Source: Rhodospirillaceae bacterium (lineage in GTDB: Bacteria > Pseudomonadota > Alphaproteobacteria > Bin65). Taken from it: DNA of 64,000 nucleotides. The notes beneath the pieces are model-generated. The model had not been told where the DNA came from. It made no database searches and saw only the letters and a program-made list of their open reading frames with translations. Made by a program: the position numbers and the translations under genes. The stretch spans positions 1 to 64,000 of the forward strand of contig WTGH01000070.1 in assembly GCA_011523655.1 (NCBI GenBank). Reading direction: 5' to 3'. Below are positions 12,819 to 62,295 of this stretch, piece after piece; positions within the stretch are counted from its first letter, which is position 1; each line of letters begins with the position of its first letter.

Positions 12819-14297
12819 TCAGCCGCCTTTCACCGCCTCATAGGCCGCCAGCGCCGCGCGCCGGGCCGCAGCGTGATCCACGACCGGGCGCGGATAGCTT
12901 TCGCCCAGGCGCACGCCGGCCGCGTGCAGCACCTCCGGCGGCGCTTCCCAGGGCCGGTGGATCCACCGGTCCGGCAGGCCGGCGAGTTCCGGGACGTAGC
13001 GGCGGACATACTCGCCCTGCGGGTCGAACTTCTCGCCCTGGGCGACCGGGTTGAAGATGCGGAAATAGGGCGCGCCATCGGCGCCGCAGCCGGCCACCCA
13101 CTGCCAGCCGCCGCTGTTGTTGGCAAGATCGGCGTCGACCAGCGTGTCCCAGAACCAGGCCGCGCCGTCCTGCCACGGGATCAGCAGGTGCTTGACCAGG
13201 AAAGACGCCGTGACCATGCGCAGCCGGTTGTGCATCCAGCCGGTCTGCCAGAGTTGCCGCATCCCGGCATCGACGAAGGGATAGCCGGTCTTTCCTTGCT
13301 GCCACACCCGCAGGGCTTCCGGATTTTCCTCCCAGGGAAAGTCGGCGAAGCGCGGCTGCAGCGGCGCTTCGGTCAGGTCGGGAAAATGGTGGAGCAGATG
13401 GTACGAGAATTCGCGCCAGCCGAGCTCGGCAAGGAACTTTCGAGGGCCGGCGTCGGCCTCGCCGTCGCCGACGGCGGACAGGCCGTAGATGGCGTGCCAG
13501 ACCTGCCGCGGGCCGATCTCGCCGAAATGGAGATATGGCGACAGGCGGGATGTCGAGACGAGGTCCGGCCGGTCGCGCTCCGCTTCGTATCCGGCGAGTC
13601 CGGTTTCGAGAAAGCCGCGCAGCAGGCGTTGCGCCGCCGCTTCGCCCGGCTGCCAGGCGGCGCGCAGGCCGCCGGCCCAGTCCGGGGCAACCGGCAGCAG
13701 CGCCCAGGTATCCAGCGTTTCGCTTTCAACCGTTGCGGCGGCCGCCGGCCCGGCGAACGCCGGCACGGGCAGGGGCGGCGCGGGCGGTTCCGCCGCCAGG
13801 CAGGCGCGCCAGAAGGGCGTGAACACGCGATAGGGCGCGCCGCCCTTGGTTGCGATTTCCCAGGGTTCGAACAGCAGGGCAGCATTGAAGCTCTCGATCG
13901 CGACGCCCGCCGCCTGCAAGGCCGCCCGTATCGCATCGTCCCGCCGGATCGCCCACGGTTCGTAAAGGCGGTTCCAGTAGACGCCGCGTGCGCCGGTTTC
14001 GGCGATCAATCGTTCAAGGACCGGACCGGCCGCACCGCGCCGCAGGACGAGGCGAAGACCCTGGCTCGCCAGGCTTCGCGACAGCGCCTCAAGGCTGTGG
14101 TGCAGCCACCAGCGCGACGCGCCGCCCGGCGCCCAAGCACCGGCGCTCTCCCGGTCCAGAATGTAGAGCGGGATCACCGGCCGCCCGGCCGCCGCCGCGG
14201 CATGGAGCGCGGGATTGTCCGACAGGCGCAGGTCCTGCCGGAACCAGACGATGACCGGCGCGAGGTCGCGCGCGCCGGTCGGGTGTCCGGCCGTCAC
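12819..14297 (-). CDS. phr: Deoxyribodipyrimidine photolyase (class I type)
   Basis: A 492-residue light-driven DNA repair enzyme. The N-terminal photolyase domain starts PVIVWFRQDLRLSDNPALHAA. The C-terminal FAD-binding part has WREFSYHLLHHFPDL, GYPFVDAGMRQLWQTGWMHNRLRM and the signature NNSGGWQWVAGCGADGAPYFRIFNP. The GTG at 14297 was taken because it begins just before this domain and 35 bases after the glutaredoxin-like stop; no clear ribosome site precedes it, so translation may be coupled to the upstream gene. An upstream in-frame extension lies inside that gene and is not protein-like. Confidence 0.93.
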   Translation of the reverse strand: MTAGHPTGARDLAPVIVWFRQDLRLSDNPALHAAAAAGRPVIPLYILDRESAGAWAPGGASRWWLHHSLEALSRSLASQGLRLVLRRGAAGPVLERLIAETGARGVYWNRLYEPWAIRRDDAIRAALQAAGVAIESFNAALLFEPWEIATKGGAPYRVFTPFWRACLAAEPPAPPLPVPAFAGPAAAATVESETLDTWALLPVAPDWAGGLRAAWQPGEAAAQRLLRGFLETGLAGYEAERDRPDLVSTSRLSPYLHFGEIGPRQVWHAIYGLSAVGDGEADAGPRKFLAELGWREFSYHLLHHFPDLTEAPLQPRFADFPWEENPEALRVWQQGKTGYPFVDAGMRQLWQTGWMHNRLRMVTASFLVKHLLIPWQDGAAWFWDTLVDADLANNSGGWQWVAGCGADGAPYFRIFNPVAQGEKFDPQGEYVRRYVPELAGLPDRWIHRPWEAPPEVLHAAGVRLGESYPRPVVDHAAARRAALAAYEAVKGG

Positions 14298-47124: not shown

Positions 47125-48306
47125 TCAGCAAATCGTGTCGTAGACCGCTGTCTCGAACGCCATGTAGCCGGGGAAGGAAACCGGATCGCCAAAGGGCAGG
47201 ACCTGCGTCGCCCAGAAGCCACCGACCCTGTTTTTGCGGTCGAACCAGTAGAAGAGGTTGGCCAGCCCGTGCCAGCCGATACCCCCCGCCGGGCGTCCTG
47301 TGGGCGCTTCCTCCCTGGCGACCATGAAGCTGTAGCCGAAGTCCTTCTTCATCCCGGGGAAGAACGGCGTGCCATGGGTCAGCGCAGGGATGACGGCAGG
47401 CAGGTCGAAGAGCGCCTGCGGCGGTTGCAATGCGCCTTGCACCGCGAACCGGACCGTTTCCGGCTTCAGGACCCGGCCATGGGGACCGGCGCCATCGTTC
47501 AGCCACATGCGGATGAACTTCATGTAGTCGGGAATCCGGGCATAGAGCCCGTGACCGGTCATTTCCACTTCAGGGTCGTCAGGCAGCGCAAAATCGTCCA
47601 TCGGCGATAACGAGCCGTCTTCTTCGCGCCGGTGGAAGATCGCGGTGCGTGCCTTCATGTCCGCGGTGCGGGTGAACGCCATGTCATCCATCCCCAGCGG
47701 AGCAAACACGCGCTCTTGCAGCACCTCGCCAATCCGCTTGCCGCGGACCGCCTCGACAACCTGACACGCCCAGTCGATGTTCGTGCCGTATTCCCATCTG
47801 TCGCCGGGATCGAACAGCAGCGGCGTGGTCAACGAGGCGCGGCTGCAGGTCAGGATGCTGGGCTGACCATGCTCCTGGGCCAGGCGATTGTAGTTTTCGT
47901 TGAAGATGTCATAGCCGAGGCCGGCAGTGTGCAGCATCAGCATGCGCGTTGTGATATCGCGCCTGGGAGGACGCAGTTGCGGGTTCCCGTCCGCGTCAAA
48001 GCCTTCCAGCACCTGCAAGTCGCCGATCTCAGGCGCGTAGTCTTTCGCGGGCGCGTCGAAGTCCAGCAGTCCTTCCTCGACACACTGCAGCACTGCGGTA
48101 CCGCCCACGGCCTTGGAAGTTGAGAGAATTGCGAACACCGTATCTTCGGTCATCGGGTCGTCGCTGCCCCAGCGACGCACACCGGCCGCGCCTTCATAGA
48201 TATTCTCTGTCTCGTTCGTCACCATGGCGACTACGCCGGGCACCCGCTCTGCACCGGTCGTCACGCGCTCCAGCACCGCGTCGCACGCTTGCGCCAACGT
48301 CGACAT
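47125..48306 (-). CDS. Serine hydrolase, beta-lactamase class C fold
   Basis: A 393-residue penicillin-binding/esterase-like hydrolase (EstB type). The SxxK motif is in FAILSTSKAVGG, the YxN motif in WEYGTNIDW and the third motif is probably WHGLAN. No signal peptide, so cytoplasmic action on an ester or amide of a small molecule is more likely than cell-wall work. It is the last gene before the right copy of the 70-bp repeat. Confidence 0.85.
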   Translation of the reverse strand: MSTLAQACDAVLERVTTGAERVPGVVAMVTNETENIYEGAAGVRRWGSDDPMTEDTVFAILSTSKAVGGTAVLQCVEEGLLDFDAPAKDYAPEIGDLQVLEGFDADGNPQLRPPRRDITTRMLMLHTAGLGYDIFNENYNRLAQEHGQPSILTCSRASLTTPLLFDPGDRWEYGTNIDWACQVVEAVRGKRIGEVLQERVFAPLGMDDMAFTRTADMKARTAIFHRREEDGSLSPMDDFALPDDPEVEMTGHGLYARIPDYMKFIRMWLNDGAGPHGRVLKPETVRFAVQGALQPPQALFDLPAVIPALTHGTPFFPGMKKDFGYSFMVAREEAPTGRPAGGIGWHGLANLFYWFDRKNRVGGFWATQVLPFGDPVSFPGYMAFETAVYDTIC

Positions 48307-48629: not shown

Positions 48630-49694
48630 CTACGGACCCGCGCCGGCTTCCTCGGCCTCCATCGCAGCGAACAGCTTGCGGATGCCCATCACCGCCTTGT
48701 CCGCCTTGAGCGGGACCTCGGAATAGCCGTCGTCGTCGTAGGCGAACATCGCCTGCTGTTTCTCGAGCGCCCAGCGGTCCTCCTCCACGACCGAAGGGAA
48801 GGTCTCCGAGAAGCGTTCGGCGACCGATCTCGACCCGCCTTCGTGCCTGTAATGGCCCGGCGTGTTGACGATCCAGTGCCACTCGACATGCTCCCGGTCG
48901 ATCGGCAGATGGGTGTGGTAAAGGACGTAGCCGCGATCCGCCCCGGCGCCCAGCTTGCCCGGCGGCGCGACGCGGATTTCGACCCGGGTGAGGCCCGGGT
49001 TCATCATGTGGTGGGTGTGGTCGCGGTCGACGGTCTCGAGGCCGAACCAGTCGACCATCATCGGCGGCTGCGTGTAGTTCTCCGCGTGCCTGATCGACTT
49101 GATCGTGTGGTTGCCGTCGATGATCTTCTCCTCGAACTTGACCGGGAGCCGGCTGTTCGCCTCGTCGCCGATATTGCCGTCGTGCAGTGGATAGAAGTGC
49201 GTGATGTCGAGGAGATTTTCGACCACGAGGCGGTAATTCGCCTTCACCCGAAGGGTGTCGGAGCTGACCGTATCCCATTCGTCGCTGACGATTTCGGGGG
49301 TCCGCGGCGGCTGGCAGTTGCCGATCTTCTCCGGGTTGCCCGGCCAGATCCAGACCAGCCCGTCCTGCTCGATGACCGGATAGGGCCGCAGTTTCGCCCG
49401 CGCCGGGATCGGCCCTTCCGGCTGGGAAGGTATTTTCACGCACGCCCCTTCGGTGTCGTAGCACAGGCCGTGATACGCGCATTCGAGGGTGCCGTTCTCC
49501 AGCAGCCTGCCGGCGGACAGCGGCATGCGCTTGTGCACGCAGCGGTCGTCGAAGGCGACGACCCTGCCGTCCGCGGCGCGCCACATGACGACCGGCTTGC
49601 CGCCGATCTTGCGCCCCTGCAACTCGCCGGCCGGGAACTGCCCGGCCAGCCCGGCCGCATACCAAGCGTTCAGAATCAGACTGTTTGCGATCAT
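48630..49694 (-). CDS. Rieske non-heme iron oxygenase, alpha subunit (VanA-like)
   Basis: A 354-residue oxygenase. The Rieske cluster ligands are Cys52/His54 and Cys72/His75 (RCVHKRMPL, ECAYHGLCYD). The mononuclear iron site shows N160, D163, H166 and H171 in VVENLLDITHFYPLHDGN. Size and layout fit the vanillate demethylase type, which hydroxylates or O-demethylates aromatic acids. No dedicated reductase gene is adjacent; the reductase at 55873 could serve it. The ATG at 49694 is preferred; an upstream extension would cross the operator at 49846. Divergent from the CoA-ligase operon. Confidence 0.9.
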   Translation of the reverse strand: MIANSLILNAWYAAGLAGQFPAGELQGRKIGGKPVVMWRAADGRVVAFDDRCVHKRMPLSAGRLLENGTLECAYHGLCYDTEGACVKIPSQPEGPIPARAKLRPYPVIEQDGLVWIWPGNPEKIGNCQPPRTPEIVSDEWDTVSSDTLRVKANYRLVVENLLDITHFYPLHDGNIGDEANSRLPVKFEEKIIDGNHTIKSIRHAENYTQPPMMVDWFGLETVDRDHTHHMMNPGLTRVEIRVAPPGKLGAGADRGYVLYHTHLPIDREHVEWHWIVNTPGHYRHEGGSRSVAERFSETFPSVVEEDRWALEKQQAMFAYDDDGYSEVPLKADKAVMGIRKLFAAMEAEEAGAGP

Positions 49695-49845
49695 CCCGGT
49701 CCCCCCCTGTCTCCGGCGCGAACCGACGAACGAACGGCGCGCCCCCGCGATAGAAGCCCAATCGGCCGCGCCGGGCAACACTCGCACACAGCGACCGGTA
49801 CGGCAGCCGGGTCGTCCGGGCGGCGACGCGGCGCCGGATTTGATG

Positions 49846-49862
49846 TTGACGTAAACGTAAAA
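49846..49862. promoter_or_regulatory. Operator 1 of the TetR regulon (TTGACGT-AA-ACGTAAA)
   Basis: A dyad TTGACGT-AA-ACGTAAA with one mismatch between the arms. It shares ACGTAAACGTAAA with operator 2 at 54216-54236. It lies in the 221-base divergent region between the Rieske gene and the CoA-ligase gene, 54 bases before the ligase ATG. The TetR protein encoded at 53548 is the likely binder. Confidence 0.75.
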
Positions 49863-49915
49863 TTTTCCCACGTTCTGCGTCGCACGGGACAAGACCGGTC
49901 TGCCGGAGCGCCGCG

Positions 49916-51511
49916 ATGCTGGGTTCGCCGATTGCCGAGAAGGCCCCGATCGGGAACGTCGTCGACTATCTCTTCGAGACGTCCGGCGCGCCGGACCATG
50001 CCGGCCGGCCGGCCCTGCTGCTCGACGATGCGGAGCGCACCGTCGTGACCTACGGCGCCTTGCAGGCCCGGGTCTGCCAGGCCGGCCACTATCTTCGGTC
50101 GCTCGGCATCGGCGAAGGCGACCGGGTGATGTTCAGCGTGATGGACGGGCTGGATTTCGAGGCCCTGTTCCTCGGCGGAATCAAGATCGGCGCGGTGACG
50201 ATTCCGATCAACACCTGGCTGAAGCCGCAGGACTACGCCTACTATGTCAACGACAGCGGCTGCCGCGCCGTCGCGATCGACCATTCCCTGGTGCCGGTCT
50301 TCGAGCAAATCCGCGATCGGCTCGGCAGCGTCGAGCATATCGTGGTCTGCGGCGAGCCGGTCGCGGGCCACCCGTTTCTCGGCGACGAACTCGACCGCTT
50401 CCCTGAGACCCTGGAATCCCTGCCGCAGGAACCGGACGACACCGCCTTCTGGCTCTATAGCTCCGGTTCGACCGGCGATCCCAAGGGCGTCGTCCACACC
50501 CACGCGCATATCTACTGGGCGACCGAGTTGTTCGGCATCGCGGCGCAGAAGATCACGGCCGACGACACCGTCTTCTGCCCGCCGAAAATGTTCTTCGCCT
50601 ACGGGCTGGGCAACCAAGTCTATTTCCCGATCCGCGCCGGCGCGTCGAACGTCGTCGGCAGCGGCCCGATCCTGCCCGGCCCGTGCTGGGACCTGTGGCT
50701 GGAGCACCGGCCGACCATCGTGATGAGCGTGCCGACGCTCTACGCCGCCATGCTTCAGACCGCCGAGCAGGAGATCGGCCGGAAGGCGGTGCGCGACGCC
50801 TGCGCCCGGATGCGCTTCTGCGTCAGCGGCGGCGAACTGCTGCCGCCCTCGCTGTTCGACCGGTGGAAGGAATTCACCGGCGTCGAGATCCTCGACGGCG
50901 TCGGCACGACCGAAATGACCCACATGTTCCTGCTCAACCGGCCCGGCGAAGCCGTGCCCAACAGCTGCGGCCGGCTGATCGACGGCTTCGGGGCGGAGAT
51001 CGTCGACGACGAAGGCAATCCCCTGCCGGCCGGCGAGGTCGGCAACCTGCGCGCCTTCGGGCCGTCGGCCGCGCGCGAATACTGGAACAAGCCGGCGCGC
51101 ACGGCGCAGGTGTTCGGGGACGGCGGCGTACTGACCGGCGACAAGTTCCGGGTCGACGCGGACGGCAACTTCTTCATCGTCGGCCGGTCGGACGACATGC
51201 TGCGGGTCGGCGGCATCTGGGTCTCGCCGACCGAAATCGAGGCGGCGATCGCCGAGCATGACGGCGTGCTCGAATCCGCCGTGATCGGAAGGCCGGACGA
51301 CGAACAGCTCATCAAGCCCCACGCCTATATCGTGCTGAAGGACGGCGTGACCCCGGAAGATGGGGCGGACGGCCTAGCCGACGCGCTGCGCAGCCATGTC
51401 CGCGACCGGCTGGCCCACTACAAGTGCCCGCGCTGGATCGACTTCGTCGACGAACTGCCGAAAACGACGACCGGCAAGATCCAGCGCTACAAGCTGCGCG
51501 CAGAGGCCTGA
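49916..51511 (+). CDS. Benzoate-CoA ligase family protein
   Basis: A 531-residue acid-CoA ligase close in layout to benzoate-CoA ligases. Motifs: FWLYSSGSTGDPKGVVHTH, YGLGNQVYFPIRAGA, GVGTTEMTHMFLLN, GDKFRVDADGNFFIVGRSDDMLRVGGIWVSPTEIEAAI and PKTTTGKIQRYKLR with the catalytic Lys. It should activate an aromatic or similar acid as the first step of the pathway encoded to 56883. The Fe-S protein gene begins 7 bases downstream. Confidence 0.9.
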   Translation: MLGSPIAEKAPIGNVVDYLFETSGAPDHAGRPALLLDDAERTVVTYGALQARVCQAGHYLRSLGIGEGDRVMFSVMDGLDFEALFLGGIKIGAVTIPINTWLKPQDYAYYVNDSGCRAVAIDHSLVPVFEQIRDRLGSVEHIVVCGEPVAGHPFLGDELDRFPETLESLPQEPDDTAFWLYSSGSTGDPKGVVHTHAHIYWATELFGIAAQKITADDTVFCPPKMFFAYGLGNQVYFPIRAGASNVVGSGPILPGPCWDLWLEHRPTIVMSVPTLYAAMLQTAEQEIGRKAVRDACARMRFCVSGGELLPPSLFDRWKEFTGVEILDGVGTTEMTHMFLLNRPGEAVPNSCGRLIDGFGAEIVDDEGNPLPAGEVGNLRAFGPSAAREYWNKPARTAQVFGDGGVLTGDKFRVDADGNFFIVGRSDDMLRVGGIWVSPTEIEAAIAEHDGVLESAVIGRPDDEQLIKPHAYIVLKDGVTPEDGADGLADALRSHVRDRLAHYKCPRWIDFVDELPKTTTGKIQRYKLRAEA

Positions 51512-51518
51512 ACCCGCC

Positions 51519-52565
51519 ATGACGCGCACCCCGCTCGACGCCGCCGAAGTGAAGCAGATGGCGCTCGACCTGGGCGCCGACCTGGTCGGCATCGCGTCGG
51601 CCGACACGCTCAACGCCTTCCCGCCGGACCCGCGCTGGCCCCAGACGCCGGAGCGCATCACCCCCTACTGCCGCAGCGTCATCGTCATCGCGCTTGCGAT
51701 ACCCGTTGCGGTGTTCCGGACCAAGCTGTCGATCACCGTCCAGTATATGGACCAGGCGATCCTGCGCCGGCTCGACAAGGTCTGCCACCGCCTTGCCCGC
51801 AAGCTGGAGCAGAACGGCTGGCCGAGCTTCATCACCATGGGGCAGGAAACCGACCTCAGCATGAAGAACGGCAGCTATGGCCGGCTTTCGACCCGCCATC
51901 TCGGCGTCGAGGCCGGCATGGGCACGCTGGGGCTGGACGTCAACATCCTGACCCTGGAATACGGCCCGCGGGTCTATCTCACCGGCATCCTGACCGAGCT
52001 GGAACTGGAGGCCGATGCGCCGATGACCGAGCAGGTCTGCATCGGCGAATCCTGCTCGCGCTGCCTGCATTCCTGCCCGACCGACGCGGTGCTGCATTAC
52101 GGCCTGGACAAGCGGGATTGCGCCCAGGCCGCCCAGGAGTTCGGCTACGGCGTTTCGACCGCCTTCATGCGGGACTATTTCGAGGCCGGTGCCGAGGGTC
52201 GCAAGCGGATGATCCGCGACCGCAACATCTTCGGCCTGTGGCAGGGCCTGCTGCGGGTCGCCGGCTCGTTCGGCGACTGCCCGCGCTGCATGGCGGTCTG
52301 CCCGGCCGGCAACGACTATCACGCCTTCCTCGCCGATCCGCAGAAACGGATTCCGGAGAGGACCGAGGAAAAGGCCGAACGGGGCCGGGAATACCGCCGC
52401 ATCCGGCGCGAAGGCGGCGACGCGCCGGGCCTCGACGACTGGAACATCCGCTGGGTCGGCCCGGAGGGCTACCGGGGCCTCGTCGCGCGCGAATTGCAGG
52501 ACTTCAAGAAACGCGAGGCGGCGAAGATCGAGGCCGGCCGGGCGGCGGTGGAGAGCAGGGACTGA
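51519..52565 (+). CDS. QueG/RdhA-like double [4Fe-4S] protein 1
   Basis: A 348-residue protein resembling epoxyqueuosine reductase and reductive dehalogenases. The N-terminal part (LGADLVGIASADTL; AGMGTLGLDVNILTLEYGPRVYLTGILTEL) is of the type that holds cobalamin in those enzymes. Cluster ligands are C174, C179, C182, C186 plus C201, C254, C257, C261. It is not QueG itself: queuosine genes are absent and a paralog with the same cysteine layout follows 5 bases downstream. The setting in a CoA-ligase/oxygenase cluster suggests a reductive step or electron transfer. Confidence 0.75.
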   Translation: MTRTPLDAAEVKQMALDLGADLVGIASADTLNAFPPDPRWPQTPERITPYCRSVIVIALAIPVAVFRTKLSITVQYMDQAILRRLDKVCHRLARKLEQNGWPSFITMGQETDLSMKNGSYGRLSTRHLGVEAGMGTLGLDVNILTLEYGPRVYLTGILTELELEADAPMTEQVCIGESCSRCLHSCPTDAVLHYGLDKRDCAQAAQEFGYGVSTAFMRDYFEAGAEGRKRMIRDRNIFGLWQGLLRVAGSFGDCPRCMAVCPAGNDYHAFLADPQKRIPERTEEKAERGREYRRIRREGGDAPGLDDWNIRWVGPEGYRGLVARELQDFKKREAAKIEAGRAAVESRD

Positions 52566-52570
52566 CGGCG

Positions 52571-53551
52571 ATGGTCGAGATCTATCGCGCGCCGCTCACC
52601 GCCGAACTGGTCAAGCAAAAGGCCCGGGACTTCGGCGCCGACATCGTCGGCATCGCCGACGGCGCGGTCATGAACGAGAACCCGCCGGACCCGGACGATC
52701 CGCGCCGGCCGAGCGACATCACCGACTACGACGCCGACCGGGTGATCGTGATCGGCCAGCGCGTCAGCCTCGGCGCGACCCGCATCCCGGCCTGGTCGGA
52801 CCGGCACAAATACGTCAACGACGAACTCACCATCGCCGGGCTGGAGGAGGTCGCGCTCGACCTCGTGCGCTGGCTGGAGCAGAGCGGTTATCCGGCGCTC
52901 ATCGTGCCGCCGACCCATGTCGACCCGTGGCGCTACGACGGCGATCCCCGGCTGCACCAGAAGCTGCCCCTGTCGCTCGACCATGCCGCGGTCGAGGCCG
53001 GGCTCGGAACCCTCGGGCTCAACCTGCAATTGCTGACGCCGGAATACGGCCCGCGGGTCATCCTGACCGCCGTGCTGAGCTCGATTCCGGTCGAGCCCGA
53101 CGCGCGGATGGAGAAGCCCCTGTGCCTCGGGCCGGAGTGCGGGCGCTGCCTCTCGGCCTGCCCGGGCGACGCGATCGGCCACTGGAGCCGGGACTGGCCG
53201 GCCTGCAACGAGCATCGCCAGCCCCACGGCTTCCGGCAGGTCGCCGAGTTCCTCGACGAGGTGATCGACGAGACCGACCCCGAGATGCAGAAACGAATGC
53301 TGCGCAACGAGAAGAGCTTCTATATCTGGGCCAGCATCCTGCGCGGCGCCGGCGCGGTCACCGGCTGCCGGCGCTGCCAGGATGTCTGCCCGGTCGGGGA
53401 GGACTACGAGGCGATGCTCAGGGACGCGCTGGACGACATCCCGGAGGACACGCCGTCGAAGCGGCTCCGACTGGACGAACTGCGCAGCGCGGAGACGGCG
53501 GGCGACCGCGGCCCGGCCTGGCCCGCCCAGAAACGGTGGATCGGATCATGA
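52571..53551 (+). CDS. QueG/RdhA-like double [4Fe-4S] protein 2
   Basis: A 326-residue paralog of the preceding protein. FGADIVGIADGAVM and AGLGTLGLNLQLLTPEYGPRVILTAVLSSI match its partner. The cysteines C185, C190, C193, C197, C212, C266, C269 and C273 keep the same pattern (C-x4-C-x2-C-x3-C, single C, C-x2-C-x3-C). The two may form a heterodimer. Stop overlaps the ATG of the tetR gene (ATGA). Confidence 0.75.
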   Translation: MVEIYRAPLTAELVKQKARDFGADIVGIADGAVMNENPPDPDDPRRPSDITDYDADRVIVIGQRVSLGATRIPAWSDRHKYVNDELTIAGLEEVALDLVRWLEQSGYPALIVPPTHVDPWRYDGDPRLHQKLPLSLDHAAVEAGLGTLGLNLQLLTPEYGPRVILTAVLSSIPVEPDARMEKPLCLGPECGRCLSACPGDAIGHWSRDWPACNEHRQPHGFRQVAEFLDEVIDETDPEMQKRMLRNEKSFYIWASILRGAGAVTGCRRCQDVCPVGEDYEAMLRDALDDIPEDTPSKRLRLDELRSAETAGDRGPAWPAQKRWIGS

Positions 53552-54210
53552 CAAGCACAGCGGACGAACGGACCGGGGCGCCGGACGGGTCGCGCAGGGC
53601 CGGCAGGACCGGCGGGCGCCGCGCCGAGATCCTCCAGCGGGCGACCGAGTGTTTCGACCGGCTCGGCTACGCCAACACGACGCTGGACGACATTGCGCGC
53701 GCGGTCGGCATCAAGCGCGAGGGCATCTACTACTATTTCAAGAACCGCGGGCAGATCCTGCTCGAAATCATCGAGCCGCAAAGCCGCCTGCTGGTCGACG
53801 GCGTCGCGGCGGTCGTCGAGGATGCGGCGCTCGGCCCGCGCGAGAAGTTCCGCGAGGCCATCCGCATCCATCTGCTCCATTTCGACCGCTACTGCCTGGA
53901 AATGACCGTGAGCCTGCGCGACGGCCGGTTCGAAGGCGAGCCGGAAGTGCGCCAGGCGATGGTCAGGCTGTGGAAGGAATACGAAGCGTCCTGGACCCGC
54001 ATCATCGCCGAAGGCCAGGACCGGGGCGAATTCAGGACCATCGGCGAGCCGAAGACGCTGGCCTTCGCCGTGCTCGGCACCTGCAACTGGCTGGCCCGCT
54101 GGTACGATCCCCGCAAGCCGGTGACGATCGACGCACTGATCGATTCCTACACCGAGCTGCTGTCGTCGGGCCTGTTCGAACAGGAACCGGCACCGCCTTC
54201 GCCGACTTGA
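53548..54210 (+). CDS. TetR-family regulator of the oxygenase cluster
   Basis: A 220-residue repressor type. The N-terminal helix-turn-helix spans about residues 25-70 (RRAEILQRATECFDRLGYANTTLDDIARAVGIKREGIYYYFKNRGQIL). The C-terminal ligand domain is all-helical and may bind an acyl-CoA, as in related regulators of CoA pathways. It is coupled to the Fe-S genes and ends 5 bases before operator 2, which suggests that it represses both this operon and the downstream one. Confidence 0.9.
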   Translation: MTSTADERTGAPDGSRRAGRTGGRRAEILQRATECFDRLGYANTTLDDIARAVGIKREGIYYYFKNRGQILLEIIEPQSRLLVDGVAAVVEDAALGPREKFREAIRIHLLHFDRYCLEMTVSLRDGRFEGEPEVRQAMVRLWKEYEASWTRIIAEGQDRGEFRTIGEPKTLAFAVLGTCNWLARWYDPRKPVTIDALIDSYTELLSSGLFEQEPAPPSPT

Positions 54211-54236
54211 CTATATTTTTACGTAAACGTAAAAAA
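54207..54236 (+). promoter_or_regulatory. Promoter with operator 2 (TTTACGT-AA-ACGTAAA) in the spacer
   Basis: TTGACT (54207-54212), a 17-base spacer and TAAAAA (54230-54235) form a plausible promoter. The perfect dyad TTTACGT-AA-ACGTAAA, extended by two more T/A pairs on each side, overlaps the spacer and -10, so a bound repressor would block RNA polymerase. It lies 20 bases before the ATG of the MaoC-type gene. Confidence 0.75.
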
Positions 54237-54255
54237 CATCTGAGGGAGGACGGCG

Positions 54256-54654
54256 ATGAACATGGACCGGCAGGGGCACGTTTTCCCGCGCTTTACCGTG
54301 CGCCCCGAGAAAGCGCTGGCGGAGAAGCTGTTGCGCGGCCAGGGGGCGCCGGTCGATCTGGAGACGGTGCCGCCGACCTACATGATCTTCCTCCGCGGCG
54401 AGACCCGCGGCGCCAACCTGTTCGAGGCGCTCGGCATCGACCGCAGACGCGCCCTGCACGGCGGCCAGCGCTACGAATGGTACGAACCGGCCGCCTGGGA
54501 CGAGGAACTGACGGTGACGGCGACGGTCGAGAAAATCACCGAGAAGCAGGGCCGCAGCGGCAGGATATGGTTCGCCGACGTTGCGCTGGACTATGCGCGC
54601 GCCGACGGCACGCGGGTGCTGCGCGAGATCACCCGGCTGATCGAGCGGGAGTAG
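54256..54654 (+). CDS. MaoC-like hot-dog fold protein, subunit 1
   Basis: A 132-residue protein of the MaoC/FAS1-type N-terminal hot-dog group (PPTYMIFLRGETRGANLFEALGIDRRRALHGGQRYEWYEP). It has no clear catalytic Asp-His pair and probably pairs with the next gene product as a non-catalytic or substrate-binding half, as in two-chain hydratases of the HadAB type. First gene after operator 2. Confidence 0.8.
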   Translation: MNMDRQGHVFPRFTVRPEKALAEKLLRGQGAPVDLETVPPTYMIFLRGETRGANLFEALGIDRRRALHGGQRYEWYEPAAWDEELTVTATVEKITEKQGRSGRIWFADVALDYARADGTRVLREITRLIERE

Positions 54655-54658
54655 GCCG

Positions 54659-55045
54659 ATGGCATACAGCGAAGGCGACATCCTGTTGGACGCGACGGTT
54701 CCCGGCGCAAACCTGGCCCGGCTCGCCGACTTTTCCGCCGGGACCGAGGACCCGAACCCGATCCACACCGACGAGGAATTCGCGAAAGCCGCCGGTTTTC
54801 CGACCGTGCTGCAGCAGGGCCCGATGACCACCGCCCATTTCGCCCGCCTGCTCGCGGAGCGGGTCGGGCAGGATCGGCTGCGCTGGCTCGACGTCACCTT
54901 TACAGCGCCGGTCTTCCCGGAAGAGGACCTGAAGATCGAGGCCGTGGTAACGGCGGTGGACGGCGAGGCCGTCACCTGCGCGCTCACCGCATCCAAGGGC
55001 GACGGCACGGTCACGGCGAAGGCCGAGGCCGGATTCGGGGCTTGA
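54659..55045 (+). CDS. MaoC-like enoyl-CoA hydratase, subunit 2
   Basis: A 128-residue hot-dog protein with the hydratase motif FSAGTEDPNPIHTDEEF (Asp31, His36) followed by GFPTVLQQGPMTTAHFARLL. It should be the catalytic half of an (R)-specific hydratase. The ATG is 5 bases after the previous stop. Confidence 0.87.
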   Translation: MAYSEGDILLDATVPGANLARLADFSAGTEDPNPIHTDEEFAKAAGFPTVLQQGPMTTAHFARLLAERVGQDRLRWLDVTFTAPVFPEEDLKIEAVVTAVDGEAVTCALTASKGDGTVTAKAEAGFGA

Positions 55046-55090
55046 CGTGGCGCCCAGCGTCCTGAACCGGCGAAAGCGGAGAACGCTCCC

Positions 55091-55867
55091 ATGTCTGTAA
55101 CCGAGTCCGTCACCTACGGAGAGGCGGGAATTCCCAGCGTCACGCCGGAGACCTTCTGGGACCAGGACGAGGAATTCCGCGACCTGCAGCTCAACCTGAT
55201 CAAGATCCATGTGGTCAGCGAGGATTACGGCGCCGATTGTTTCGAGCCCTCGATCCTGCGCGCGCCGACCCCGGAAGCGAAGATGCGCATGGCAAAGACC
55301 GTGGCGGAGGAATACGGCCACCATCTGCGGTTCCGGGCGCTGCTCGACGAGCTCGGCCTCGACTGGCGCGAATTCAGCGCCGACAAGGACCATCTGACCA
55401 CCTTCGACACGCCGATCGACGACTGGGCCGACCAGGTCGTCTTCCTCGCGCTGGTCGACCGGGCCGCGGCGCACCAGTTCCGCCAGTTCGTCAGGTCGCC
55501 CTATGCGCCGTTCCGCAAGGCCTGCCAGGACACGCTGAATGAGGAATACGGCCATGTCGGCTTCGGCATGGACGGCGTGAAGGACATGCTGGAGACGCCG
55601 GCGGGCCGCGCCGCGGTCGAGGCCGCGGTGCCGAAATGGCTCAGGGTCGGCCTCGCCTCCTTCGGCGGCGACCGGTCGCGGACCAACGAGCGCTACCGCT
55701 ACTGGGGCTTCAAGACCGAGACCAACGCCGCCATGCGCGCGGCCTACTACCGCCAGACCCGCGCCTTCGTTGCCCGCGACTGGGGCATCGAACTGGCCGA
55801 AGATCCGGCGGTCTACATGGCCGCAGCCAGCGAACCGTCCCGGCCGGCGCCTGCCGCGGCGGGCTGA
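55091..55867 (+). CDS. PaaA-like di-iron oxygenase
   Basis: A 258-residue ferritin-like protein of the phenylacetate-oxygenase (PaaA/PaaC) superfamily. Two ExxH metal motifs are visible: E74-x-x-H77 (AEEYGHHLRF) and E152-x-x-H155 (NEEYGHVGFG), with E44 (VVSEDYGADC) as a further ligand candidate. No PaaB, PaaC or PaaD partner is encoded nearby. It may epoxidise or hydroxylate a CoA-bound substrate using the reductase that follows 6 bases downstream. Confidence 0.85.
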   Translation: MSVTESVTYGEAGIPSVTPETFWDQDEEFRDLQLNLIKIHVVSEDYGADCFEPSILRAPTPEAKMRMAKTVAEEYGHHLRFRALLDELGLDWREFSADKDHLTTFDTPIDDWADQVVFLALVDRAAAHQFRQFVRSPYAPFRKACQDTLNEEYGHVGFGMDGVKDMLETPAGRAAVEAAVPKWLRVGLASFGGDRSRTNERYRYWGFKTETNAAMRAAYYRQTRAFVARDWGIELAEDPAVYMAAASEPSRPAPAAAG

Positions 55868-55872
55868 GCGAT

Positions 55873-56883
55873 TTGACTGCCTTCACCGTCGCGCTGCAGG
55901 ACGGCACGGCGGTTTCCTGCGCCGCCGGCCAGAGCGTGCTGGAAGCCTGCCTCGCCGCCGGCCTGCCCATGCCCTACAATTGCCGCTCCGGCGAATGCGC
56001 CGAGTGCCGGGCGGTGCTGCTGAGCGGCAGCGTCGACGAGAGCCCCGGCGCCGACCCGGCGGTCTTCACCGAGGCCGACCGGCGCAAGGGCCGCATCCTG
56101 ACCTGCCTGTGCGCGCCGACCTCCGACATCGCGCTGGAAATCGTGCTGCGCGATGGCGCGAGCGCGCCGCGGATCGAGCATGTGGAAGCGACGGTCGGCC
56201 GGGTCGAAGGGGTCTCGGCCAGCGTCGTCCAGGTCGCGCTCGACTGCCCGCGCGAGATCGCCTACCGGGCCGGCCAGTATTTCGAATGGATCGTCCCCGG
56301 CATCGCGCCCAACCGCTATTTCTCGGCGGCGAACCCGCCGGGCGGGACCGAACTGGTGTTCGACGTCCGGCTCTATCCGGGCGGCGCAATCGGGGACCAT
56401 GTGCGGTCCGGCCTCTCGCCGGGCCATCCGCTGGAGATCGCCGGGCCCTACGGCCATTTCGGCTTCACGGCGAACGATCACCGGCCGGCGATCTGCGTTG
56501 CCGGCGGCACCGGCCTCGCCCCGATCAAGGCGATGGTCGCGGACGCCCTGGCCGGCAAATCCGGCCGCCGCATCCGCCTGCTCTACGGCGCGCGCCGGCG
56601 CGAGGACCTGTACGATACTGCGCTGCTCGACGCCTTTGCTGCCCGGTCGGCGGATTTTAGCTACGCCATCGCCCTGTCGGAAGAACCGGACGGCAGCGCG
56701 TGGGACGGGCCGCGCGGCACTGTGACCGGACTGCTGGCCGATACGGTGTATGACGGATTCGGCGCCGAGGCCTTCCTGTGCGGACCGCCGCCGATGATCG
56801 ACGCGGCCATGCCGATCCTGGAGGCAATCGGCGTCGACCCCGACGACATCCACGCCGACCGCTTCAGCCCGGCGAAGATTTGA
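55873..56883 (+). CDS. Flavin reductase with N-terminal [2Fe-2S] ferredoxin domain
   Basis: A 336-residue reductase. The ferredoxin part carries C37, C42, C45 and C78 (YNCRSGECAECRAVL, ILTCLCAP). The FAD/NAD part has NRYFSAANPPGG, AGGTGLAPIKAM and FLCGPPPMIDAAM. This order (ferredoxin first) is that of BenC and phenol-hydroxylase reductases, not PaaE. It starts with TTG at 55873; no ATG fits. It likely feeds the di-iron protein and perhaps the Rieske oxygenase. Confidence 0.88.
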   Translation: MTAFTVALQDGTAVSCAAGQSVLEACLAAGLPMPYNCRSGECAECRAVLLSGSVDESPGADPAVFTEADRRKGRILTCLCAPTSDIALEIVLRDGASAPRIEHVEATVGRVEGVSASVVQVALDCPREIAYRAGQYFEWIVPGIAPNRYFSAANPPGGTELVFDVRLYPGGAIGDHVRSGLSPGHPLEIAGPYGHFGFTANDHRPAICVAGGTGLAPIKAMVADALAGKSGRRIRLLYGARRREDLYDTALLDAFAARSADFSYAIALSEEPDGSAWDGPRGTVTGLLADTVYDGFGAEAFLCGPPPMIDAAMPILEAIGVDPDDIHADRFSPAKI

Positions 56884-57722: not shown

Positions 57723-58223
57723 ATGGACCTGCGTACGTCCGACCCTGCCGCTGCCGCCCCGGCGGATTCCGCCGAAACCGGCGGCCGGGCCCTGCGCATG
57801 GCGCGCGGGGTCTGCCGGTTCCTCGCCGCCCGGGGCTACAGCACGCTCACCGAGTTTCCCGTCGGCAAGGGAAGGCGCGTCGACGTGATCGGCCTGAACC
57901 GGGAGCAGCGCTTCGTCATCGTCGAGATCAAGACCACGCTGGCCGATTTCCGCGGCGATGCGAAATGGCCGGACTATCTGCCCTGGTGCGACGCCTACTA
58001 TTTCGCCGTGCCGGACGGTTTCCCCGCCGACATCCTGCCGGCGGACCAGGGCCTGCTGGTCGCCGACGCCTTCGACGCCGCGGCGATCCGCGAGGCGCCG
58101 GAGCGGACGATGAACGCGACCCGCCGGCGCACCCAGATCCTGAAATTTGCGCTCGCCGCCGGGCAGCGCCTGCAACAGGCCCTCGACCCCGCACCGGCCG
58201 AGCGCTGGAACGGCCGCGCCTGA
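57723..58223 (+). CDS. mmcB: MmcB-family putative DNA repair endonuclease
   Basis: A 166-residue protein. The core RFLAARGYSTLTEFPVGKGRRVDVIGLNREQRFVIVEIKTTLADFRGDAKW has the E/D...D...ExK arrangement of a restriction-like nuclease. In Caulobacter the family is part of the SOS damage response (established for the family). The ATG at 57723 (MDLRTSD) is preferred to 57669. The stop codon lies in a tandem repeat. Confidence 0.88.
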   Translation: MDLRTSDPAAAAPADSAETGGRALRMARGVCRFLAARGYSTLTEFPVGKGRRVDVIGLNREQRFVIVEIKTTLADFRGDAKWPDYLPWCDAYYFAVPDGFPADILPADQGLLVADAFDAAAIREAPERTMNATRRRTQILKFALAAGQRLQQALDPAPAERWNGRA

Positions 58224-58259
58224 CCGACCCGCGCCTGACCTACCCGCGCCTGACCTACC
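58215..58259. repeat. Three tandem 15-bp repeats carrying both stop codons
   Basis: Units 58215-58229, 58230-58244 and 58245-58259 read CGCGCCTGACC(G/T)ACC. The first unit supplies the TGA of mmcB and the third the TAG of the methyltransferase-like gene on the other strand. Confidence 0.7.
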
Positions 58260-58953
58260 CGCTCCGGGCCTTGCCGCGCAGGGGCAGGAAGCGCGGCACG
58301 GCGGCGCTGTAGCGGGCATAGTCTTCGCCGTAGATCTGCAGCAGCTTGCGCTCCTCAAAATGCGTGCCGACGACGAGATAGAGCGTGCCCCACGCCGCCG
58401 TCATCAGCGCCGCCTCGTCGAAGGCGCGGCCCCAGAACACCATCATCATCGCGCTGTAGAGCGGATGGCGGACATAGCGGTGGATGCCGTGGGTGATCAG
58501 CGGCTCCAGCCGCGCCTGCGGGACGTCGGGCGGCGGCTCCGGCAACTCGCGCGCCGCACCCGCCATCGGCCCGTAGCCGGCGCCGCGCCCCCGCCCGCGC
58601 CCGGAGTCGCGCCGGTGGACGATGACCCTGGCCTGGGTCAGGCCGCCGAAGCGGCCGAGATCGTATTGCACCAGGGCGACGAACAGCAGCACCCAGCCGG
58701 CGACCTGGACCGCCACCATCGGCGCGTGCAGCCAGAGCGGCATGTCGAATGCGACCTTGCCGGGAAAGCCGCGCCACTCGAAGAACAGGATCGCACCGAG
58801 ATGGACCGCCGCGATCAGGTTGTAGGCGATCCGGGCGAAGCCGCCGAGCGCGGCGTCGAACGCCCGGTTGGCCTTCTGCCGCGCCAGCAGGCTGTGCAGG
58901 ACGCCGAAGCTGAGCCAAGCGAGCGCATAGAGGAGATGGTCGGCAACGGTCAT
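58255..58953 (-). CDS. Isoprenylcysteine methyltransferase-like (ICMT/NnrU) membrane protein
   Basis: A 232-residue protein with about five hydrophobic segments. The C-terminal ICMT-type signature is HGIHRYVRHPLYSAMM together with GTHFEERKLLQIYGEDYARYSAAVPRFLP. A Gly/Arg-rich insert (RRDSGRGRGRGAGYGP) separates the halves. It could methylate a small hydrophobic molecule at the membrane; the substrate is unknown. Confidence 0.8.
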   Translation of the reverse strand: MTVADHLLYALAWLSFGVLHSLLARQKANRAFDAALGGFARIAYNLIAAVHLGAILFFEWRGFPGKVAFDMPLWLHAPMVAVQVAGWVLLFVALVQYDLGRFGGLTQARVIVHRRDSGRGRGRGAGYGPMAGAARELPEPPPDVPQARLEPLITHGIHRYVRHPLYSAMMMVFWGRAFDEAALMTAAWGTLYLVVGTHFEERKLLQIYGEDYARYSAAVPRFLPLRGKARSG

Positions 58954-59135
58954 GGCGGGTCAGGATACGCCACACGCCGGGCCGGAGTCATGGGATGTCA
59001 TGGCCGGAGTTGTACCCGGCTCCGGTCGAAATGACGGTTCGGGGGTGCGGCGGCGGTCCGGGGCAGGCCCAGGGGCGGTGGAGCGCAGGCGAAAGTCTGA
59101 ACCCCCCTACCGCTGCGGCGCACAGCCGGGAACGC

Positions 59136-60290
59136 TCAGCTCTTCAGCCCTTCCCAGAGGGTCTTGACCCGATCGAAGAAGTCGGTCGATTTCGGGCTGT
59201 TGCTGTCGCCGCCGGCCTCGCGGAACTGGTCGAGGATTTCGCGCTGCTTCGGGCTGAGATTGCGCGGCGTCTCGACCTCGATCTCGATATACATGTCGCC
59301 GCGCGCCCTTGAGCGAAGCTGGGACATGCCCTTGCCGCGCAGCCGGAACTGGTCGCCGCTCTGCGCGCCCTCGGGAATCGTGACCCGGGCGCGCATGCCC
59401 TCGACGGTCGGGACCTCGAGCGCGCCGCCGAGCGCCGCCGTCGTCATGGGCAGCGGCACCTGGCAGTAGATGTTGGCGCCGTCGCGGTGGAACACGTCGT
59501 GCGGCGCCACCGAGACGAAAATGTAGAGATCGCCCGGCGGGGCGCCGCGCATGCCGGGCTCGCCCTCGCCGGCGAGGCGGATCCTTGTGCCGTCGTCGAC
59601 GCCGGCCGGAATGTTAACCGAGAGGGTCTTCTCGCGCCGCACCCGCCCGGCGCCGTTGCAGGTGCGGCAGGGCTTGTCGATGACCTCGCCTTCGCCCTGG
59701 CACCGGGCGCAGGTGCGCTCCACCGTGAAGAAGCCCTGGCTGGCGCGCACCCGGCCGCGGCCGCCGCACTGGCCGCAGGTCACCCTGGCCGCGCCGCCCT
59801 CCGAGCCGCTGCCGCCGCACGATGCGCACTGGTCGGCGCTGGGCACCCGGATCGTCGTCTGCTTGCCGGTGAAGGCGTCTTCCAGGCTCACTTCCATATT
59901 GTAGCGCAGGTCCTGGCCGCGGGTCGGCTGGCGCCGGCGGCCGCCCTGGTTCATGCCGGAAATGTCGCCGAAGATGTCCTCGAAGATATCGCCGAAGCTG
60001 CCGCCGCCGAAATTGAACTCGAATCCGCCACCCCCAAAGCCACCGGGGCCCGGCCCGCCCGCCTGCTCGAACGCGGCATGGCCGAAGCGGTCGTAGGCCG
60101 CGCGCTTCTCGCCGTCTTTCAGGACTTCGTAGGCCTCGTTGACCTGCTTGAAGTTGCGCTCGGCCTCGCCGTCGCCGGGGTTGCGGTCGGGGTGGTACTG
60201 CATCGCCTTCCGGCGGAAGGCGGACTTGATCTGCGCCTCGTCGGCGTCGCGGCCGACGCCGAGCACGTCATAAAAATCCCGCTGCGCCAT
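59136..60290 (-). CDS. dnaJ: Chaperone DnaJ
   Basis: A 384-residue Hsp40 co-chaperone. J-domain with HPD ([15 protein letters not shown]), Gly/Phe-rich linker ([20 protein letters not shown]), four CxxCxGxG zinc motifs ([32 protein letters not shown]) and the C-terminal peptide-binding domain. 49 bases downstream of dnaK and very likely in its operon. Confidence 0.97.
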
Positions 60291-60339
60291 CGCCGATCCC
60301 GCCTGTCAGGCCGAAACCGCCATCGGCCGACGCCGGCCG

Positions 60340-62295
60340 TCAGGACGCTTTCTTCTGCTCGTCGTCGTCGACTTCCTCGAAGTCGGCATCGACGACGCCC
60401 TCTTCGGCTTCGGTTCCGGCCGGGGCGTCGGTCGCTTCGGCGCCGCCGGCCGCATCACCGGCCGCACCGGCGGCGGCTTCGGCCTCGGCCTGCTGGGCGG
60501 CATACATGGCCTCGCCCAGCTTCATCGATGCCTGCATGAGCGCCTGGGTCTTTTCCTGGATCGCGCCGAGATCGTCCTCGTCCTTGACCGCCTTCAGGTC
60601 CTCGATCGCTTTTTCGATGGCCTCCCTCTCGGCGGCCTCGATCTTGTCGCCATGCTCGGCGAGCGACTTGCCGGTCTGGTGGATCATGGCATCGGCGGCG
60701 TTGCGGGCGTCGGCCAGCTCGCGGCGCTTGCGGTCCTCCTCGGCGTTGGCCTCGGCCTCCTCGACCATGCGCTCGATCTCGTCGTCACTCAGGCCGCCGG
60801 AGGCCTGGATGCGGATCTGCTGCTCCTTGCCGGTCGCCTTGTCGGTCGCCGTGACGCTGACGATGCCGTTGGCGTCGATATCGAAGGCGACCTCGATCTG
60901 GGGCACGCCGCGCGGCGCCGGCGGAATGCCGACCAGGTCGAACTGGCCGAGCAGCTTGTTGTCCGCCGACATTTCGCGTTCGCCCTGGCCGACCCGGATC
61001 GTGACCGCGCCCTGGTTGTCCTCGGCGGTCGAGAAGACCTGGCTCTTCTTGGTCGGGATCGTCGTGTTGCGGTCGATCAGCCGGGTAAACACGCCGCCCA
61101 GGGTTTCGATGCCGAGCGAGAGCGGCGTCACGTCGAGCAGCAGGACGTCCTTCACATCCTTGTTCAGCACGCCGCCCTGGATTGCCGCGCCGAGCGCCAC
61201 GACCTCGTCCGGGTTGACGCCCTTGTGCGGCTCGCGGCCGAAGATCTGCTGGACCGTCTCCTGGACCCTGGGCATGCGGGTCATGCCGCCGACCAGAATG
61301 ACTTCGTCGACCTCGCTGGCCTTGAGGCCGGCATCCTTGAGCGCCGATTTGCACGGCCCGACCGTGCGCTGGATCAGCTCCTCGACCAGGGTTTCCAGCT
61401 TGGCGCGGGTCAGTTTGACGTTGAGGTGCTTCGGCCCGCTCGCATCGGCGGTGATGAAGGGCAGGTTGATGTCCGTCTGGGTCGCGCTCGACAGTTCGAT
61501 CTTGGCCTTCTCCGCGGCCTCCTTGAGGCGCTGGAGCGCCAGCCGGTCCTCGCGCAGGTCGATGCCCTGGTCCTTTTTGAACTCGGCGGCCAGATAGTCG
61601 ATGATCTTGGCGTCGAAATCCTCGCCGCCCAGGAAGGTATCGCCGTTGGTCGATTTGACCTGGAACAGGCCGTCGCCGATCTCGAGGATGGAGACGTCGA
61701 AGGTGCCGCCGCCCAGGTCGTAGACCGCGATGGTGCCGCTCTCCTTCTTCTCCAGCCCGTAGGCCAGCGCCGCCGCCGTCGGCTCGTTGATGATACGCCG
61801 GACATCGAGGCCGGCGATCCGGCCGGCGTCCTTGGTCGCCTGGCGCTGGGAATCGTCGAAATAGGCCGGCACCGTGATGACCGCCTCGTCGACCGGCTCG
61901 CCGAGATAGGCCTCGGCGGTCTCCTTCATCTTCTGCAGGATGAAGGCGCTGATCTGGCTCGGGCTGAATTTCTCGGCGCGCGCGCCGACCCAGGCGTCGC
62001 CGCCGTCGGACTTGACGATCTTGTAGGGGACGAGGTCGATATCCTTCCTGGTCATCGGATCGTCGAAGCGCCGGCCGATCAGCCGCTTGACCGCGAAGAT
62101 CGTGCTTTCGGGGTTGGTCACCGCCTGGCGCTTGGCCGACTGGCCGACCAGCCGTTCGCCGTCCTCTGCAAACGCCACCATCGACGGCGTCGTCCGGCCG
62201 CCCTCCGAATTCTCGACCACCTTGGCATTCCCGCCGTCCATGACGGCGATGCAGGAATTGGTGGTGCCGAGATCGATACCGATAATCTTGGCCAT
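60340..62295 (-). CDS. dnaK: Chaperone DnaK (Hsp70)
   Basis: A 651-residue ATP-dependent chaperone. It begins [21 protein letters not shown], carries [17 protein letters not shown], and ends with an acidic tail ([21 protein letters not shown]). Full length and unbroken. A heat-shock promoter is seen at 62455-62483, about 150 bases upstream of the ATG; GGGGAG precedes the start. Confidence 0.98.

Follow-up and report, generated by a model that had tools for sequence, protein, structure and literature searches.

The window analyzed here (bases 1 to 64000 of contig C28 from genome G000, which comprises 4.27 Mb in 70 contigs) contains a nine-gene cluster for the probable breakdown of aromatic acids bound to coenzyme A (CoA). 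There is strong evidence from its sequence that the cluster forms a single regulon made up of a Rieske oxygenase gene, a unit of CoA ligase, two iron-sulfur protein genes (FeS1 and FeS2) and TetR, and a second unit of MaoC1, MaoC2, a PaaA-like di-iron enzyme, and a reductase. Our best reading of the core of this regulon is a minimal paa-like pathway that would epoxidize and open an aromatic ring without PaaB, PaaC, and PaaG. The complete model adds an accessory reductive FeS1-FeS2 pair and a Rieske entry enzyme to this core under TetR control, and we consider the chances evenly balanced that it is right as a whole.

The regulon is marked by two nearly identical copies of a 17-base operator motif, a near-perfect 16-base dyad with the half-site TTTACGT. 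Operator 1, TTGACGTAAACGTAAAA, is at positions 49846 to 49862 (+) between the divergent Rieske and CoA ligase genes, and operator 2, TTTACGTAAACGTAAAA, is at positions 54218 to 54234 (+) upstream of maoC1. With up to one mismatch allowed, these two sites were the only matches in the 4.27-Mb genome. Dinucleotide shuffles of the window gave zero matches to the motif, and a reversed control pattern had zero matches in the whole genome. Across six genomes, all 11 operator matches fell at cognate loci. Three relatives (G001, G005, and G006) had the motif at both equivalent positions, and the site upstream of the CoA ligase was present in these, in G003, and, with one mismatch, in G007. The regulon of G003 is split, with ligase-FeS1-FeS2-TetR on its contig C20 and MaoC1-MaoC2-PaaA-reductase on its contig C24, and each part carries its own operator. 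Because both halves of this split regulon retain the operator, a single regulon is strongly supported, in keeping with the original prediction of one regulon under TetR control. The TetR family regulator itself (TetR_C_24, PF00440 and PF17932; positions 53548 to 54210, +) is encoded between the two transcription units, a position conserved in relatives, and from this position we infer that it is the operator-binding protein. A TetR-type repressor would then control the two adjacent transcription units through the two operators; while the sites are seen in the DNA, the repression and its ligand are presumed.

Gene calls and domain searches placed nine intact genes between acmB and an mmcB/dnaJ/dnaK block. 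Only the Rieske oxygenase gene is on the minus strand; CoA ligase-FeS1-FeS2-TetR-MaoC1-MaoC2-PaaA-like-reductase are on the plus strand. The genes are closely spaced, with a short overlap of a few bases between FeS2 and TetR. The CoA ligase (positions 49916 to 51511, +) scored 502 bits with the benzoate-CoA ligase model TIGR02262 against a cutoff of 375, which places it in that family, and its nearest solved structures are anthranilate-CoA and benzoate-CoA ligases. Of the two hot-dog subunits, MaoC1 (PF13452; positions 54256 to 54654, +) aligned without the hydratase Asp/His motif and is probably structural. MaoC2 (PF01575; positions 54659 to 55045, +) has this motif as DPNPIH, is closest among solved structures to the (R)-specific enoyl-CoA hydratase 1iq6, and is the probable ring-opening (R)-hydratase. 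Such an arrangement of a catalytic and a motif-less partner resembles heterodimeric hot-dog hydratases. The PaaA-like di-iron monooxygenase/epoxidase (positions 55091 to 55867, +) matched PF05138 at 48.9 bits over cutoff and would act as a single catalytic subunit. Its candidate di-iron ligands (E44, E73/E74, H77, D123, E151/E152, and H155) were invariant in nine relatives and aligned with those of solved PaaA chains. The last gene (positions 55873 to 56883, +) encodes a BenC-like reductase with [2Fe-2S], flavin adenine dinucleotide (FAD), and nicotinamide adenine dinucleotide (NAD) domains (PF00111, PF00970, and PF00175), which scored 188 bits with the BenC model NF040810, under the cutoff of 430, and is the likely electron donor for the oxygenase(s). 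The original prediction had listed ten genes. All those it named are present and intact, but they number nine. Its aryl-CoA-ligase-like enzyme, its MaoC pair, and its PaaA-like oxygenase, a single protein with a complete ligand set, were recovered as described, and gene content bears out the stated absence of PaaB/PaaC and BoxB/BoxC.

In relatives, the core module consists of a benzoate/anthranilate-type CoA ligase and MaoC1-MaoC2-(thiolase-aldehyde dehydrogenase)-PaaA-like-reductase. The order MaoC1-MaoC2-thiolase-aldehyde dehydrogenase-PaaA-reductase is complete in G001 and G006. In G007 it is spread over two contig ends, one reading ligase-TetR-MaoC1-MaoC2-thiolase and the other thiolase-aldehyde dehydrogenase-PaaA-reductase. 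The full six-gene order was also found in G114, which belongs to an unrelated alphaproteobacterial family, at 45 to 66% identity, together with a divergent ligase (50% identical) and what reads as a branched-chain-type ATP-binding cassette transporter. The thiolase and aldehyde dehydrogenase genes of the relatives' operon go beyond what had been predicted, and they point to a paa-like ring-opening order. The PaaA-like protein itself is rare: only 5 of the 385 genomes sampled from the class encode it (E ≤ 1e-40), 4 of them in the window's own genus, and annotated plasmids yielded distant PaaA-type genes only.

In the paa pathway, the substrate of the PaaA epoxidase is a CoA ester, and PaaZ is a fusion of a hot-dog (MaoC-type) oxepin-CoA hydrolase and an aldehyde dehydrogenase (PMC7497051). 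Once the epoxidized aryl-CoA has been isomerized, the hot-dog part of PaaZ opens it and the dehydrogenase part oxidizes the aldehyde so formed; in some bacteria, the two activities reside in separate enzymes (PMC7497051). Of this hydratase-dehydrogenase set, the MaoC pair is present in our cluster and the aldehyde dehydrogenase is in the operon only in relatives. Because the operon order of the relatives supplies the same set of activities as paa, a reduced paa-like ring-opening pathway is our best reading of the core. We propose that the benzoate family ligase would form an aryl-CoA from an aromatic carboxylic acid, and that the single-subunit PaaA-like enzyme, fed by the BenC-like reductase, would epoxidize the CoA-bound ring. 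A MaoC1/MaoC2 heterodimer would hydrate and open the rearranged ring in the manner of the PaaZ hot-dog domain. The aldehyde dehydrogenase and thiolase, which several relatives keep in the operon and which are presumably encoded elsewhere in G000, would finish the breakdown.

Several observations weigh against this model. The PaaA-like protein scored 54 bits with the PaaA equivalog model TIGR02156, whose cutoff is 280. The cluster has no PaaB or PaaC partner subunit, the sole other PF05138 match in the genome being on contig C24, and it has no PaaG-like epoxide isomerase. The locus of the window strain itself encodes neither thiolase nor aldehyde dehydrogenase; the best thiolase relative in its genome, on another contig, is 45% identical. 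The relatives' thiolase is closest to lipid-transfer/SCP-x types rather than PaaJ, and their aldehyde dehydrogenase is closest to betaine-aldehyde types rather than PaaZ. Since a PaaG-like isomerase is missing and these two enzymes are atypical, a different role for the oxidative genes stays alive, namely, that they shorten a phenylpropenoid side chain by MaoC hydration, thiolase-like retro-aldol cleavage, and aldehyde dehydrogenation, with the PaaA-like enzyme as a hydroxylase and no ring opening. The lipid-transfer-type thiolase beside an aldehyde dehydrogenase would suit such a route, as would the VanA-type Rieske oxygenase and the acyl-CoA dehydrogenases and DUF35/thiolase pair seen in Burkholderiales loci that carry the FeS pair. 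However, the ligase belongs to the benzoate family and not to the cinnamate/4-coumarate type, and side-chain cleavage has no need of a PaaA-type epoxidase. We regard side-chain shortening as unlikely and prefer the paa-like ring-opening model for the core.

The second main component of the regulon is the pair of sister proteins FeS1 (positions 51519 to 52565, +) and FeS2 (positions 52571 to 53551, +), each with the two [4Fe-4S] motifs CxxxxCxxCxxxCP and CxxCxxxCP, which were invariant in alignments. Foldseek searches with the predicted structures (predicted local distance difference test [pLDDT] scores of 78 for FeS1 and 89 for FeS2) matched both proteins to QueG, PceA, and NpRdhA with a probability of 1.00, at modest template modeling (TM) scores of ~0.36 to 0.51. 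By these predictions, they are two distinct proteins of the QueG/RdhA fold, as had been proposed for them, and fall at fold level within the class III cobalamin/Fe-S superfamily. The nearest solved relative of FeS1 is QueG. As members of either known family, FeS1 and FeS2 were rejected, since they are below the curated cutoffs and differ in catalytic residues. They scored 60 and 39 bits with the QueG model TIGR00276 (cutoff, 200) and ~28 to 31 bits with the RdhA model TIGR02486 (cutoff, 160); the true QueG of this genome, on contig C57, scored 435 bits with TIGR00276. In a tree, FeS1 and FeS2 each formed a group of their own, and these two are sisters that stand separate from RdhA and QueG (support of 82/73 for FeS1 and 100/99 for FeS2), although the branches are long and the deep order is not to be read.

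The catalytic residues of QueG (PMC4646009) and the Tyr-Lys/Arg dyad of RdhA (PMC4646009, PMC10463259) allowed a direct comparison. The position of the QueG catalytic Asp (Asp130 in S. thermophilus) is Ser119 in FeS1 and is not conserved in FeS2. The Lys/Arg position of the RdhA dyad is Tyr153 in FeS1 and Ile164, a variable hydrophobic position, in FeS2. FeS1 does have a nearly invariant Tyr76 at a position like that of the DYH-motif Tyr of QueG, which lies above the corrin, but this residue is next to alignment gaps. Catalytic residues of both QueG and RdhA are missing from FeS1 and FeS2, and the original claim that the Fe-S proteins perform a reductive step in the pathway was not supported in that form. 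The missing residues count against the reductive part of our own model as well. The Foldseek matches of both proteins include the B12-binding protein CblC, and the two may bind base-off cobalamin as RdhA does.

FeS1 was adjacent to FeS2 in all 80 named loci, which came from Alphaproteobacteria, Betaproteobacteria, and a few other lineages. A CoA ligase was directly beside the pair in 61 of these loci (57 downstream, usually PaaK-like, and 10 upstream) and was present anywhere in the locus in 68. FeS1 was found in 11 of the 385 sampled genomes of the class (E ≤ 1e-100), and searches of annotated plasmids with the pair gave remote matches only. PaaA-like genes occur close to the pair in four loci of Burkholderiales/Betaproteobacteria (L100, L109, L110, and L116) and in one alphaproteobacterial locus (L102), and Rieske dioxygenase genes are near it in another four (L069, L072, L080, and L082). 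The FeS pair thus repeatedly accompanies aromatic oxygenases, with the CoA ligase as its usual partner across Alpha- and Betaproteobacteria, an association that the original prediction did not include. It was absent, however, from the core operons of G007 and G114, which counts against the full model, and the Rieske gene was present in only two of the genomes examined, so the proposal that all ten genes act as one fixed pathway found no support in that form. The genes had been expected to stay together in related genomes rather than be scattered among unrelated partners; the core module and the operators do so, while the FeS pair is in part scattered.

As read from the sequence, the FeS pair is an accessory to the core module. 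In our proposal, FeS1 and FeS2 form a heterodimeric reductase from the QueG/RdhA superfamily that is made together with the CoA ligase and would most likely prepare the acid or its CoA ester for the oxidative core by removing or reducing a substituent (a halogen or an oxygen function). More broadly, FeS1-FeS2 may be a new two-gene enzyme of this superfamily, an obligate heterodimer that is widespread in Alpha- and Betaproteobacteria, dedicated to CoA-activated acids, and responsible for a reductive step on the acid or CoA thioester in aerobes. We offer this broader claim tentatively and would not yet bet on it. In the literature that we found, no such reductive step on an acid or CoA thioester in aerobes was assigned to the QueG/RdhA superfamily.

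Related gene arrangements were seen in the same genome and elsewhere. G000 has a second FeS1-FeS2 pair (C41:22502-24503, locus L033), preceded by a transglutaminase-like gene and followed by a PaaK-like ligase gene, and this set recurs in relatives and in other lineages. A further QueG-like family of ~300 residues (G000 C40:213-1935, locus L128; also positions 13067 to 13993 of L069) likewise occurs as a two-gene tandem and forms its own clade in the tree. G202 has three FeS1 genes in one genome (L168 and L169), of which at least two are in FeS1-FeS2 pairs ~20 kb apart on the same contig. In eight loci (L083, L084, L089, L090, L095, L102, L103, and L112), one more gene is divergent from or next to FeS1-FeS2-ligase; its L089 member is a GTP cyclohydrolase II.

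The Rieske non-heme iron oxygenase (PF00355 and PF19112; positions 48630 to 49694, −) is of the VanA/dicamba-O-demethylase type. Its likely start is the ATG at 49694 and not 49892, and its nearest solved structure is DdmC (3gb4, 114 bits). Among the mapped loci, the gene was found only in G000 and G005. Judging from these matches, it is probably a strain-specific entry enzyme that would O-demethylate a methoxylated substrate, and because there is no reductase gene next door, it may share the BenC-like reductase of the regulon. As for the substrate, we would guess at a benzoate carrying a methoxy group or a halogen. The other RdhA genes of the genome and the sponge link of its relatives make halogenated methoxybenzoates an attractive, if unproven, candidate. 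G000, a marine and probably sponge-associated genome, encodes three RdhA-type proteins (C23:50005-50556, C1:94523-95089, and C10:47338-47877; loci L147, L148, and L149), of which two exceed the TIGR02486 cutoff and the third, of 752 residues, is NpRdhA-like and has another, weaker match in its reading frame. The close relatives identified by name are metagenome-assembled genomes from sponge-associated and other marine alphaproteobacteria, e.g., bin65 and Spongia_Bin9.

This halogen context raises the possibility that the pair works as a heterodimeric reductive dehalogenase whose substrate is a halogenated aryl acid or aryl-CoA, with the regulon degrading halogenated (methoxy)benzoates of a sponge host. 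Two Rhodobacteraceae loci (L081 and L086) have RdhA-like genes beside the pair, and four Defluviicoccus loci (L083, L089, L096, and L103) have them a few genes away, which makes six loci from two lineages. The L081 and L089 proteins, the two tested with family models, exceed the RdhA cutoff, and that of L089 is strongly NpRdhA-like. Catabolic RdhA such as NpRdhA act on bromo-4-hydroxybenzoates (PMC10463259), and the dicamba O-demethylase likeness of the Rieske protein and the sponge-associated relatives would fit as well. Nonetheless, FeS1 has Tyr and FeS2 has hydrophobic residues in place of the dyad Lys/Arg, both RdhA scores are far below the cutoff, and some soil and groundwater genomes carry the pair without an RdhA gene in its vicinity. 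We consider a dehalogenase doubtful.

A separate CoA-ligase-linked module, captured by the regulon and acting on a different substrate, is quite unlikely in our estimation. In its favor, the pair is found with PaaK-like ligases in 57 to 58 loci with varied neighbors and is missing from the core operons of G007 and G114. On the other hand, five genomes of the genus have the pair in a head-to-tail arrangement with the ligase of the regulon, under its operator, and the split in G003 leaves the pair with ligase and TetR. An epoxide-reducing safety valve, in which the pair would remove oxygen in QueG fashion from a reactive aryl-epoxide-CoA made by the PaaA-like enzyme, is improbable: QueG does reduce an epoxide (PMC4646009) and is the closest solved relative of FeS1, and PaaA-like genes are near the pair in the Burkholderiales/Betaproteobacteria and alphaproteobacterial loci above, but most FeS-pair loci have a CoA ligase and no nearby PaaA-like gene, the QueG catalytic Asp is missing, and G007 and G114 run the core operon without the pair.

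Outside the regulon, an acmB-type methyl acetate hydrolase gene (positions 47125 to 48306, −; 641 bits with NF052559 against a cutoff of 550) borders the cluster and has the same position in G005. It was considered as a tenth cluster gene and left out because it has no upstream operator. On the other flank (positions 57798 to 62295) are an mmcB-like gene, a PEMT family gene, dnaJ, and dnaK, and because of these housekeeping neighbors, the cluster looks inserted. The MaoC-PaaA half adjoins transhydrogenase genes instead in G002 and G003.

Two points become testable. If the model is true, the PaaA-like enzyme, a single subunit served by its own reductase, would be a far simpler aryl-CoA epoxidase than the multisubunit Paa complex; its regulon is sharply delimited by the operator. 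The FeS pair indicates that there is at least one more widespread branch of the QueG/RdhA superfamily, linked to CoA ligases and with a catalytic role still unassigned. Such a branch would widen the range of aerobic reductive chemistry among marine and sponge-associated bacteria.

Finally, we compared the set with known systems. With paa (PaaABCE plus PaaZ and PaaJ), the cluster shares an acid-CoA ligase, a PaaA family di-iron oxygenase with complete ligands, an iron-sulfur flavin reductase, and a hot-dog hydratase; in relatives, the operon adds an aldehyde dehydrogenase, which with the hydratase would make up the two PaaZ halves, and a thiolase. Unlike paa, it lacks PaaB, PaaC, PaaD, and PaaG; its reductase is BenC-like rather than PaaE-like, and it has a benzoate family ligase in place of PaaK and a MaoC pair in place of one hot-dog domain. 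With the box pathway, it shares a benzoate family CoA ligase and, as proposed here, di-iron epoxidation of an aryl-CoA, but the cluster has no BoxA, BoxB, or BoxC, and the BoxB epoxidase model TIGR03225 gave 19.7 bits against a cutoff of 499. By the curated cutoffs, the PaaA-like epoxidase was rejected as a member of paa or box. FeS1 and FeS2 share the fold and the two [4Fe-4S] motifs of QueG but are under its model cutoff and without its catalytic Asp. With NpRdhA-type dehalogenases, they share the fold, the Fe-S motifs, and the GPR segment, and both systems have a doubled cobalamin-type core, which is fused and partly vestigial in NpRdhA and divided between two genes here; they differ in lacking the dyad Lys/Arg, in falling far under the TIGR02486 cutoff, and in forming a separate clade. 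DdmC is the best solved relative of the Rieske protein, which also has the VanA_C domain, but the similarity is moderate only, and no reductase is encoded next to the Rieske gene. A full-text search of openly licensed papers found no description of this gene combination, an absence that is weak evidence. We see in the gene set a new form of CoA-dependent aromatic breakdown, and the FeS pair is the part of it most likely to be new, possibly a new enzyme family.

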